A stretch of DNA of 23,320 bases from a virus. Below, piece by piece: positions 599-10,017 of this stretch. The stretch lies in the IMG/VR virus record IMGVR_UViG_3300035188_000729, positions 1-23,320 of that record; one strand, 5' to 3'. The first letter of the stretch is position 1. Each line of letters starts with the position of its first letter. Both the position numbers and the translations under genes were made by a program. The notes below the pieces were generated by a model. The model had not been told where the DNA came from. It worked only from the letters and a program-made list of their open reading frames with translations, and did no database searches.

Positions 599-844
599 CT
601 AGTCATCCTCGCGGACGACATGCAACCTAATGCGCCGCTGGTCGGGTCGCGTGCCCGGGATGTGCCCACCGACGCCACCGATGACAGGGATGCCGCGCAG
701 CCTGCGCTCATCGGCCGGCGCTCCTCGTGGGTCGATCTTCGGACTCGTGCCCGAGGCCTCGGCCTCACGCAGCGCCGTATCGACCAGAGCCCCGTGCTCC
801 TTCTCAAGTCTCGCCCGCTGAACTGCCGCGAGTAGCTTCGACAC
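599..844 (-). CDS. Small hypothetical protein (81 aa)
   Basis: Not recognised. The start is GTG at 844, chosen because AAGGAGG sits 6 nt upstream on the minus strand, one of the best Shine-Dalgarno sequences in the window. The gene overlaps the end of the upstream HTH gene by 41 nt in another frame. The N-terminal 30 residues look helical and charged; the rest is Gly/Pro/Arg-rich without a clear fold. It sits between an HTH gene and the HNH nuclease, so a regulatory or packaging accessory role is possible, but nothing in the sequence shows one. Confidence 0.6.
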   Translation of the reverse strand: MSKLLAAVQRARLEKEHGALVDTALREAEASGTSPKIDPRGAPADERRLRGIPVIGGVGGHIPGTRPDQRRIRLHVVREDD

Positions 845-1037
845 GCTCGACCTCCTTGACGATCTTGTGAACAGCGGCCCGGTGATGCGAGCGCACGGTG
901 TCAGGACTCACGCCCAGGATGAGCGCGATGCGCTTCCAACCGAGCCCGGTCTCGTGCAGAAGGATGACCTCGAGCTGCTTCGCCGTACACACTCGCCCGG
1001 CAACAGCGAGCAGGTCGTTGCCATGTTCCAGAGTCAT
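804..1037 (-). CDS. Small HTH DNA-binding protein (LuxR / sigma region 4-like)
   Basis: A 77-residue protein. Residues 17-62 form a LuxR/sigma-70 region 4-type helix-turn-helix: an entry helix at 19-30, then GWKRIALILGVSPDTVRSHH as helix-turn-recognition helix at 33-52. Such stand-alone HTHs in phages are usually transcriptional regulators. I start at the ATG at 1037; the reading frame stays open upstream, but that part is repetitive and non-protein-like. The start codon lies inside the GGGAACATG repeat array described separately, and one repeat copy continues into codons 4-6. The protein is therefore a good candidate to bind those repeats and control itself (inference). There is no clear Shine-Dalgarno apart from the G-rich repeats. 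Confidence 0.78.
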   Translation of the reverse strand: MTLEHGNDLLAVAGRVCTAKQLEVILLHETGLGWKRIALILGVSPDTVRSHHRAAVHKIVKEVERVEATRGSSAGET

Positions 1038-1195
1038 GTTCCCATGTTCCCCATGTTCCCCCTCTCTCTCTCTCTTGTTCCCTTTATAGGTATTACACAT
1101 GAAATGTTTGTAAATAGCGGGGAAAGCGAGGGGGTGAGAGGGGGTGAGAGAGAGTGCGCGGAGGGAACATGGGAACACGGGAACATGGGAACGTG
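1022..1195. repeat. Inverted arrays of GGGAACAT octamers flanking an AT-rich core
   Basis: The right array (1163-1195) is four perfectly phased 8-bp units: GGGAACAT, GGGAACAC, GGGAACAT, GGGAACGT. The left array has four copies in opposite orientation (CATGTTCC at 1022, 1035, 1043 and 1052) plus GTTCCC at 1077. Next inward are (CT)n at 1062-1074 and, opposite it, a tandem GGGGGTGAGA pair (1130-1149) with GAGAGAG, so the arms stay complementary. The centre, about 1083-1117, is strikingly AT-rich (TTTATA, ATTACA, TGTAAATA). The leftward mRNA could fold into a long imperfect stem that hides the start codon of the HTH gene. An iteron-type replication origin and a regulator-binding array are both possible. 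Confidence 0.8.
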
Positions 1196-4243: not shown

Positions 4244-4395
4244 GACTTGACCTCTTCGTACATGCGCACGCGCTTGGTGAGCTCCTCGACCTGCTTGAGC
4301 AGCCAGCGCACGTCGACGCCGAGCACGGGCCCGCCGGCGTCCAGCTGCGCGCGGATCTCTGCGAGGCGCTCAGGTTCGGGAAGCGGCGGCCTCAT
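4240..4395 (-). CDS. Small helical protein (51 aa), hypothetical
   Basis: Not recognised. A 51-residue protein starting at ATG 4395 (ATGA overlap with the zinc-ribbon gene upstream) and ending in a GTGA overlap with the glycosyltransferase. It has a Pro-rich start and a C-terminal amphipathic helix (about 30-48). The upstream extension of the frame reads as arginine/proline-rich out-of-frame sequence and was discarded. The tight coupling on both sides is the main evidence that it is a gene. Confidence 0.6.
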   Translation of the reverse strand: MRPPLPEPERLAEIRAQLDAGGPVLGVDVRWLLKQVEELTKRVRMYEEVKS

Positions 4396-4526
4396 CCGCG
4401 CTGCTCCTTGGCCACGGGCTCCACGTGATCGCTCTCCCGCGTGTCCCACAGGCACTCGTCGCAGATGCGGCCGTTGCGGCCCACGGGGTCGCCGCAGGCA
4501 AGGCACGTCGCTTGCTCGTCGGTCAC
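4392..4526 (-). CDS. 44-aa zinc-ribbon microprotein
   Basis: A very small protein with the four cysteines of a zinc ribbon, CLACG and, nine residues on, CDEC, followed by a charged tail. Start GTG 4526 overlaps the stop of the membrane microprotein upstream in GTGA; its stop overlaps the next gene in ATGA. Such ribbons usually bind nucleic acid or mediate protein contacts. The function here is unknown. The cysteine pattern and the coupling support a real gene. Confidence 0.65.
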   Translation of the reverse strand: MTDEQATCLACGDPVGRNGRICDECLWDTRESDHVEPVAKEQRG

Positions 4527-4606
4527 CGCGGCCCCCTGAGCGACCACAGAAGGATCGCCGCCATGAAGAACACCAGCGCCCACATGACGCCTTGGTACGT
4601 GCTCAC
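4523..4606 (-). CDS. 27-aa single-pass membrane microprotein
   Basis: Only 27 residues: a short polar N-terminus (MSTYQG), one hydrophobic helix at about 7-21 (VMWALVFFMAAILLW), and a basic end (RGPR). The GTG at 4606 lies within the stop of the RuvC-like gene (GTGA), and its own stop overlaps the next gene's GTG. The reading frame, the membrane helix and the chain of overlaps argue that it is translated. The role is unknown; a membrane-anchored accessory or host-modulating peptide is conceivable. Confidence 0.55.
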   Translation of the reverse strand: MSTYQGVMWALVFFMAAILLWSLRGPR

Positions 4607-5797: not shown

Positions 5798-6004
5798 ATG
5801 AACATCCAAAGCCGCGTTTTCTCCGAGGAACTGAACGGCCGCACGGTTTGGCATTGGCAGGTGTGGGATGCCGACTTGGCCACCACCGACGACGGCACTC
5901 CGATCTTCTACGGGCGGAGCGTCTGCGAAACCCGCGACGAAGCCGAGGCCCGCGCGGAGGCTCGCGTCGCGGAGATTCCCGCCCGTCGCGCGGTCGGTAA
6001 CTAG
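5798..6004 (+). CDS. Rightward small protein 2 (68 aa), hypothetical
   Basis: Not recognised. The N-terminal half looks like strands with several aromatics (FSEEL, VWHWQVWDAD); the C-terminal half is one Ala/Glu/Arg helix. The ATG at 5798 follows the second copy of the CCACGAAGGGAGCA leader (5781-5794), 27 nt after the previous stop. The duplicated leader suggests that both genes are translated at similar levels. The stop (6002-6004) directly abuts the GTG of the next gene. Confidence 0.72.
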   Translation: MNIQSRVFSEELNGRTVWHWQVWDADLATTDDGTPIFYGRSVCETRDEAEARAEARVAEIPARRAVGN

Positions 6005-6184
6005 GTGGCGACGCCGAAGGAACTCGCCGTCGTGGCGAAGGCGACCGCGAAGCGTGAGGCGGGGGATTCGGAATGGCGCGACGCCATCCTCGCCGCCCAC
6101 GCTGCGGGCCTCTCCTACCGCGCCATCGCGGAGCACGCGGGCGTGTCCTTCGCTCGCGTCGCGCAGATCGTGACGGGCCGCTAG
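6005..6184 (+). CDS. 59-aa helix-turn-helix protein
   Basis: A short gene starting at GTG 6005 directly after the upstream TAG, so probably translated by coupling. Residues 25-58 form a clear HTH: AILAAHAAGLSYRAIAEHAG, then VSFARVAQIVTGR as the recognition helix. Similar mini-HTHs in phages act as transcriptional switches. It is the third gene of the rightward cassette and may bind the inverted repeat at its own promoter (inference). It ends 5 bp before the stop of the convergent methyltransferase, with no terminator between. Confidence 0.72.
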   Translation: MATPKELAVVAKATAKREAGDSEWRDAILAAHAAGLSYRAIAEHAGVSFARVAQIVTGR

Positions 6185-6189
6185 CGCAG

Positions 6190-7532
<1,343 letters not shown>

Positions 7533-7536
<4 letters not shown>

Positions 7537-8917: not shown

Positions 8918-9742
8918 CTACTTTCTCTTGGGGACAATCGGTGCCGACAGCGGCGGATAGACCGCGCGCCACGTCTTGTCGTTCTTGACGGCCCAGAGCC
9001 TGCGAGCGGCCATGAACCACTGATGCGCGTTCTCGTCCGAGGCGACAGGCACGACGAGCGCGCTGTCTGGTCGAACGTGAAACACGACCGCGCCGTCGAT
9101 GTCGGGCATGTCTATGACCGTCCCGTCGTTGCCGGTCACGAGCTTGTCGGCGTGGCAGTAGGCCCCGCCGATCTGCGCGGCCATGTCGTCGTACACGCCG
9201 CGCGATGTCTTGATGTCAGCGACCAGGCGCTTTCGCCCGCGGCCCGGGACGTACATCTCGACGATGAGGTCGAGCGTGCCCGCCCACTCAAGCCCGGGCT
9301 CGAGTCCGTAGACGGTGCACTCGGAGTAGATCGGCTCAACCTCGTAGTCGCTCAGCAACTTGTTGAGGTTCTTTACGATCGTCTCGGCGACCGGCGAGAT
9401 CTCGGGCTTCTGGGTGCGCTTGATCTGCGCCTCAATGTACTCGTGCACCATCGTGCCGGCCTGCCCCGCCTCGTCGAGCTCCGACTTCCACGCGGTCTTG
9501 ATCGCCGAGAGCGCCATCTTCTCATCCTGCGCGATCAGCGCCGCGAGCGCGCCCGACTTCTGCATGGTGATCGCGCCCTTCGCGGCCCGGTCCACCTTCC
9601 AGTTAGCGATAGCGGGCTTGTCCACCACGCCGAGCACGGTCGTCACTGACGGCACGTTGATCTCAGGCTCTGCCGGCGGTGGGGGCCACGGGTACAGCCG
9701 CGGGCCCCACCCGCTCTTGGTCGCATTACGCGGTGGCGTCAC
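8918..9742 (-). CDS. PD-(D/E)XK nuclease, Cas4/RecB-like exonuclease
   Basis: A 274-residue protein. GTMVHEYIE (96-104) supplies the upstream His/Glu of the family. WAGTLDLIVE (153-162) carries motif II D158, and LVADIKTS (173-180) carries D176 and K178 of the D-x-K core. QIGGAY (190-195) matches the conserved Gln helix. Such phage nucleases resect DNA ends for recombination with a partner SSB or annealase. The start is GTG 9742, preceded by AAGGAG at 9 nt and overlapping the upstream stop (GTGA). No 4Fe-4S cysteine cluster like that of true Cas4 is seen. Confidence 0.85.
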   Translation of the reverse strand: MTPPRNATKSGWGPRLYPWPPPPAEPEINVPSVTTVLGVVDKPAIANWKVDRAAKGAITMQKSGALAALIAQDEKMALSAIKTAWKSELDEAGQAGTMVHEYIEAQIKRTQKPEISPVAETIVKNLNKLLSDYEVEPIYSECTVYGLEPGLEWAGTLDLIVEMYVPGRGRKRLVADIKTSRGVYDDMAAQIGGAYCHADKLVTGNDGTVIDMPDIDGAVVFHVRPDSALVVPVASDENAHQWFMAARRLWAVKNDKTWRAVYPPLSAPIVPKRK

Positions 9743-10017
9743 CTGTCGGCGCTCCTTACTTCCTTACAAGTCGTCCCGGCGCAGCGGTCGCCCTCACGCT
9801 GCGCCGGGTGCTCAGCCCGGAAGGGAGTTACGGGCGAGCCAGGGGTGCGGGGGACGTCGATTGCCTGCGTGCCCCGCGCACGCTTTCCGGTTGCCCGGAG
9901 GGAGTAGCCAGAGAGCGACCTTGACCGCACGCTCCTGACTGGCTTGTGCTCGAACGCCTCACACGCCCCGGCAGCGATGCGTCGCTGCGGGGTCTTCAGC
10001 GGCGCGAACGCCGCCAT
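9739..10017 (-). CDS. Putative small basic protein (92 aa), doubtful
   Basis: ATG 10017 overlaps the upstream TGA (TGATG), and the stop overlaps the nuclease GTG (GTGA), so it fits the coupled gene chain. However, the protein is Arg/Thr-rich and low in hydrophobics, and a long hairpin (9775-9808) lies inside its 3' end. The stretch may instead be a non-coding leader controlling the nuclease gene. Nothing recognisable was found in the protein. Confidence 0.42.
   Translation of the reverse strand: MAAFAPLKTPQRRIAAGACEAFEHKPVRSVRSRSLSGYSLRATGKRARGTQAIDVPRTPGSPVTPFRAEHPAQREGDRCAGTTCKEVRSADR
9775..9808. repeat. 12-bp perfect inverted repeat upstream of the nuclease gene
   Basis: CCCGGCGCAGCG (9775-9786) and CGCTGCGCCGGG (9797-9808) are perfectly complementary, with a 10-nt loop. 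The downstream minus-strand sequence is not T-rich, so a rho-independent terminator is unlikely. It lies 33 nt before the nuclease GTG and could act as an RNA structure that slows transcription or affects translation, or as a protein-binding site. Confidence 0.6.

Follow-up and report, generated by a model that had tools for sequence, protein, structure and literature searches.

The helicase-HTH gene junction

The window, by which we mean the whole 23,320-nt stretch of viral DNA analysed, carries all of its genes on the minus strand. Read along that strand, the locus contains a replicative helicase/primase-type gene of 432 aa (1200-2498), the repeat element described here, a gene encoding a 76-aa LuxR/sigma-region-4-like HTH protein (804-1034), a gene encoding an 81-aa protein (599-844) and an HNH gene (24-389). 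A longer record of the same phage (L004) continues with a fused ParB-like/methylase ORF, a small-terminase-like ORF and a large-terminase-like ORF, assigned by reading. The carrier is not a satellite island, since the window encodes a major head protein family and portal- and terminase-like ORFs are present in L004.

The element consists of arrays of the heptamer GGGAACA, placed in opposed orientation on either side of an AT-rich core between the helicase gene and the small HTH gene. The right array (1163-1194, plus strand) has four units of the form GGGAACA(T/C) or GGGAACGT, namely GGGAACAT at 1163, GGGAACAC at 1171, GGGAACAT at 1179 and GGGAACGT at 1187, with an exact period of 8 bp; four phased octamers had been reported on this side in a preliminary description of this DNA. 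The left array (1036-1060, minus strand) is inverted relative to the right one and has three GGGAACAT units (1053-1060, 1044-1051 and 1036-1043) with periods of 9 and 8 bp. Four inverted copies had been described on this side: three are the phased units, while the fourth, GGAACATG (1022-1029, minus strand), is an outlying, degenerate unit off phase, and an additional GGGAACA unit further in, on the margin of the AT core (1076-1082, minus strand), had been missed. The two arrays are separated by an AT-rich stretch of roughly 100 bp. An AT-rich core had been described here earlier; no other 40 bp of the record are as rich in AT as this core (1076-1115; 72.5% AT), which is a candidate unwinding site.

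The element is placed immediately 3′ of the putative replication initiator gene, with only 5 bp between the right array and the helicase stop codon (1200-1202), a spacing that had been noted correctly. On the other side, the HTH gene had been said to start inside the left array; the start is indeed at the array, but its ATG (1034) abuts the phased left units. The CT/GA tracts mentioned in the preliminary description are present in the element, and so is the tandem GGGGGTGAGA pair, although the latter is not kept in the relative L005. Note that an in-frame GA/CT repeat tract (RERERERERE) resembling these tracts occurs in a cytosine-methyltransferase gene elsewhere in the window (6190-7536, minus strand).

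Exactly one heptamer (GGGAACA) forms opposed arrays of at least three copies each in the real window, and no heptamer did so in any of 200 dinucleotide shuffles. The octamer GGGAACAY occurs six times in the window, every time in the element, compared with a mean of 0.97 and a maximum of 3 in the shuffles.

Conservation in close relatives

The window helicase has few close relatives (four species). Those in IMG/VR are L004, which belongs to the same species, and L005, L012 and L008, whose helicases are 81%, 65% and 57% identical to that of the window, respectively. No relatives were found in two scans of GTDB genomes, and the phage isolates gave no close relative by DNA or protein. A search of related phages for the octamer at the helicase-HTH junction had been proposed, and it was productive: opposed arrays around an AT-rich core are kept at this junction in L005, L012 and L008. 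The unit itself varies: in L008 all copies in the two arms read GTGAACA, and L012 has a mixture of GGGAACA and GTGAACA. Only one heptamer cluster is present in each of the window, L005 and L008 records, and the core is the most AT-rich 40 bp in the records of L004, L005 and L008 as well. An outlying unit resembling that at 1022-1029 is also found in L005, L008 and L012, and a core motif, TTTCCCCGCTATTTACAAA (1107-1125, minus strand), is identical in L005. A fifth, distant relative, L013 (31% in the HTH protein and 58% in the 81-aa gene), has another upstream gene, no intergenic gap and no array.

These comparisons also disposed of three candidate explanations of the repeats. The frame that would extend the HTH N-terminus through the left array is open in the window and in L005 and interrupted by an in-frame stop in L008, so a coding role for the left array was rejected. 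A short ORF (MGNMGT) that overlaps the HTH start has no conserved counterpart in L005, and the resemblance of GGAAC to an ECF sigma −35 element is broken in L008, where the unit is GTGAACA.

Other features of the region were observed in the same records. The 81-aa protein (599-844, minus strand), whose family is unknown, is 79-83% conserved, more than the HTH protein and most helicase pairs, and the 3′ half of its gene (PADERRLRGIPVIGGVGGHIPGT) is nearly invariant, even in the distant L013. Between the 81-aa and HNH genes there is, in the relatives inspected, a conserved C-rich tract (about ACCCCCTCCCCCCACCCCGCT, then TGTC) at 529-559 in the window, 3620-3650 in L005 and 7014-7040 in L008. The cumulative GC-skew maximum falls at this tract and the window and L008 contigs stop shortly downstream; the tract and the nearby contig ends would fit a packaging end. 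The fused ParB-like and DNA-methylase ORF, which lies at 4376-5596 in L004/L026 between the HNH and small-terminase-like genes, seems absent from this place in L005.

The same layout in unrelated phages

We then scanned IMG/VR with a pattern of two TGTTCMC units, a gap of 82-110 bp and one GKGAACA unit. This gave 105 stretches, many with two or three units per arm in both arms, and after removal of redundancy 73 opposed elements remained, the clade of the window included. Of these, 33 had two or more units in each arm and the other 40 had two in one arm and one in the other. In 43 of the 73, a recognised replicative helicase gene had its 3′ end facing the element within 400 bp, whereas at random positions in the same loci a helicase 3′ end lay within this distance in 3.5% of cases. 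The profiles used for this were built from helicases adjoining the elements, so that the count for the first group (21 of 33) is partly circular, most profile seeds coming from those loci, and that for the second (22 of 40) much less so. The core was richer in AT than its locus in 32 of the 33 elements with at least two units per arm (by 13 points on average), and the median gap was 98 bp. All units of an element were of a single variant, GGG or GTG, in 71 of the 73.

The neighbouring helicases belong to several families. Independent family searches with 19 abutting ORFs identified DUF927 in nine, the Cch domain HTH_56 in nine, VapE in four, D5/Pox_D5/DUF5906 in up to five, and DUF3987 and DnaB/AAA_25 in one each; 'DNA primase/helicase' PHROGs were prominent among them. 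The array-adjoining DUF927 helicase of L047 matches the structure 8tch, a 'Pathogenicity island protein' (2e-21), and the helicase 5dgk, and the helicase beside the arrays of L059 matches the P4 alpha C-terminal structure 1ka8 (1e-25). The C-terminal domain of P4 alpha, whose known structure is 1ka8, has an origin-binding role.

A control pattern with the units in convergent orientation also retrieved GGGAACA clusters (20 non-redundant), 7 of the 20 beside a helicase. The orientation control is therefore not a clean null, and since convergent clusters also adjoin helicases, the helicase loci marked by the heptamer are not all of one arrangement. The opposed form is frequent, the commonest seen, without being obligatory. 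One near-identical convergent or mixed GGGAACA cluster was present in 18 contigs (L136, L140, L146 and 15 others), where 17 bp separate its edge from the 3′ end of a helicase gene with an AAA_25-type profile. In addition, L107 has more GGGAACA units (5860-6075) beyond a complete three-by-three opposed element, which suggests a duplicated origin region.

The window helicase and its predicted C-terminal winged helix

The window helicase falls in phrog_3022 (DNA primase), a PHROG that is also matched by the DUF3987 protein of L042, and we refer to it as DUF3987-like. It gave no Pfam family match and no PDB sequence match, and neither a P4/D5 family, 1ka8 nor HTH_56 was matched. The model of the full-length protein is of low quality in its P-loop half (mean pLDDT 59), and its top structural match, a weak one, is MCM4 in a CMG helicase. 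The last 88 residues (345-432), in turn, were modelled by AlphaFold2 as a winged helix with a pLDDT of 81. A Foldseek search with this model found TubR (4asn) as best match (E 1.4e-3), followed by other winged-helix regulators. Alignment of C-terminal domain profiles between the helicase families with hhalign, for which few sequences were available, found no match. From the position of the domain (residues about 357-427, encoded at 1218-1430 on the minus strand), and by analogy with P4, SaPI Rep and Cch2, we infer that this winged helix may be the part of the protein that binds the iterons.

A probable iteron replication origin

We propose that the element is a replication origin of the P4/PICI kind, whose iterons would be bound by the winged helix at the C-terminus of the neighbouring helicase; we hold this to be very probable, the binding and the origin activity themselves being predictions from comparison. 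The proposal is based on the conservation of the junction in three relatives, the recurrence of helicase genes 3′ of which such elements lie in unrelated phages, and the identity of the unit, apart from the G/T variant, with the type 1 repeat of P4, and the origin reading offered in the preliminary description is thereby well supported. In the mechanism that we envisage, the winged helix would bind the heptamer G(G/T)GAACA, and on each opposed array one assembly of the helicase would build up. Together, the two assemblies would melt the AT-rich stretch of roughly 100 bp between them, after which helicases would load on the two strands and replication would start. Both the stoichiometry of the helicase on the arrays and the melting of the core are suppositions of this model.

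GC skew gave no support to the proposal, since the cumulative maximum, which is terminus-like by convention, lies about 0.5 kb downstream of the element; an extremum near the element was consequently rejected as an origin sign, given this terminus polarity and the neighbouring C-rich tract. A perfect DnaA box (TTATCCACA) lies in the core of L005 only, and around the other elements such boxes showed no enrichment (1 near, 13 elsewhere), so a DnaA-box origin was rejected too.

The arrays could instead be operators for the 76-aa HTH protein, serving autoregulation, as the preliminary description had suggested, or switching on the packaging genes downstream. In favour of this, the left array and the start of the HTH gene overlap, direct repeats of 8 bp could suit an HTH, and the protein matches the GerE and sigma-region-4 families. 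Its gene precedes the HNH and terminase genes, and a position before the packaging genes is typical of late regulators in other phages. However, such arrays adjoin helicases in dozens of unrelated phages, and none of 10 far-side genes tested resembled the HTH gene of the window (nine had no Pfam family and the tenth was terminase-small-like with an HTH match below cutoff). Conversely, the HTH gene of L013 has neither arrays nor such a helicase alongside. Since arrays recur without the HTH gene and the HTH gene occurs without arrays, this gene is a bystander, its product is not a likely iteron binder, and autoregulation was not borne out; we consider the operator reading very unlikely. The overlap with the HTH start may nevertheless have an extra regulatory effect on this gene.

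The long leader hairpin that had been described over the HTH start codon raised the possibility of an RNA element that governs how the HTH gene is translated or serves as a site for RNase III. The predicted RNA fold of the window element is very stable (−85.1 kcal/mol, z = −7.1), the folds predicted for the relatives are stable too (z of −3.7, −4.6 and −2.9), and in L008 and L012 the spacing of one arm is mirrored by the other. A selected hairpin would pair its spacers in register, but across the 33 opposed-array elements the spacer letters matched no better in the nested register (0.63) than out of register (0.69) or within one arm (0.65), compared with 0.26 between elements. Because the same 9-bp unit is reused in inverted form, without position-specific pairing of the spacers, the hairpin is a by-product and not a selected feature; to judge from the sequences, the sharing of an element's own 9-bp unit would be as expected for sites of one protein. 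Moreover, the units are oriented otherwise in P4 crr and in the convergent clusters, and no Rfam family reached the gathering score. A functional hairpin is thus extremely unlikely. Finally, a partition (centromere-like) or packaging site is scarcely tenable. In its favour, the fold that most resembles the winged helix of the helicase is that of TubR, a protein that binds iteron arrays, and terminase genes lie a few genes downstream of the element. Against it, neither a partition ATPase nor a tubulin-like gene was noted next to the element, the large terminase is preceded by a separate gene, small-terminase-like and with an HTH-like N-terminus of its own (by reading), and across phages the gene that accompanies the element encodes a replicative helicase.

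We also put forward a broader proposal, as somewhat more probable than its contrary: G(G/T)GAACA would be a near-universal iteron of phage and satellite origins, situated 3′ of the helicase gene and shared by at least four helicase families (P4-alpha/D5, DUF927/Cch/SaPI-Rep, VapE and DUF3987), the word being kept while the helicase core is exchanged, and the origins of many uncharacterised phages could then be read from sequence. For most tailed phages, the replication origin has yet to be mapped. Should the proposal be confirmed, both the origin and the initiator could be predicted in many unrelated phages from one simple signature, a pair of opposed G(G/T)GAACA arrays separated by about 100 bp and placed directly 3′ of a helicase gene, and a layout described as restricted to phage-inducible islands would extend to whole phages. 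This also raises the question of why different helicase families should use one heptamer. The point most worth following is this single heptamer, common to the origins of several helicase families and usable for the prediction of phage origins.

Comparison with known systems

The preliminary description stated that no element of this form had been described. This is wrong, since the PICI/SaPI origins and P4 crr and ori share the form. The GenBank record of P4 annotates an 'ori type 1 repeat' in both ori (9086-9809) and crr, the cis-required region (4291-4590), and at these coordinates the sequence reads TGTTCACC/GGTGAACA. The heptamer GTGAACA, to which all the units of L008 correspond and of which GGGAACA in the window is a one-letter variant, lies within GGTGAACA. 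As in the window, the P4 iterons occur in both orientations and crr is directly 3′ of the gene for the initiator helicase, alpha. In contrast, P4 has a separate ori and crr and also type 2 repeats, whereas the window has one heptamer cluster; its crr is a 120-bp direct duplication with mixed orientations; and alpha has 777 aa, versus 432 aa for the window helicase, the two not being homologous by family search. On present comparisons, the window element appears to work like the P4 origin but is not filed as one; at L059, homology to alpha was found.

The layout also resembles that of the SaPI/PICI (Pri-Rep-ori) origins, which directly follow the 3′ end of rep and in which two sets of iterons 'always' enclose an AT-rich region; such a rep-ori drives a plasmid (PMC6092414). 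The element of the window likewise has opposed iteron sets and an AT-rich core immediately 3′ of a helicase gene, the likeness being one of layout. The PICI origins were described for satellites, whereas the carrier here is a phage with a head protein. At the putative SCCmec origin, the isolated C-terminal domain of Cch2, an initiator helicase, binds iterons in direct repeat that lie just past the end of its own gene (PMC7581432). The Cch HTH domain, HTH_56, is the one found in 9 of the 19 array-abutting helicases, although not matched by that of the window, and the SCCmec iteron is AAGTG in a single short repeat region. The element is thus most likely an iteron origin of the known P4/PICI layout, carried by a tailed phage with a DUF3987-type helicase.
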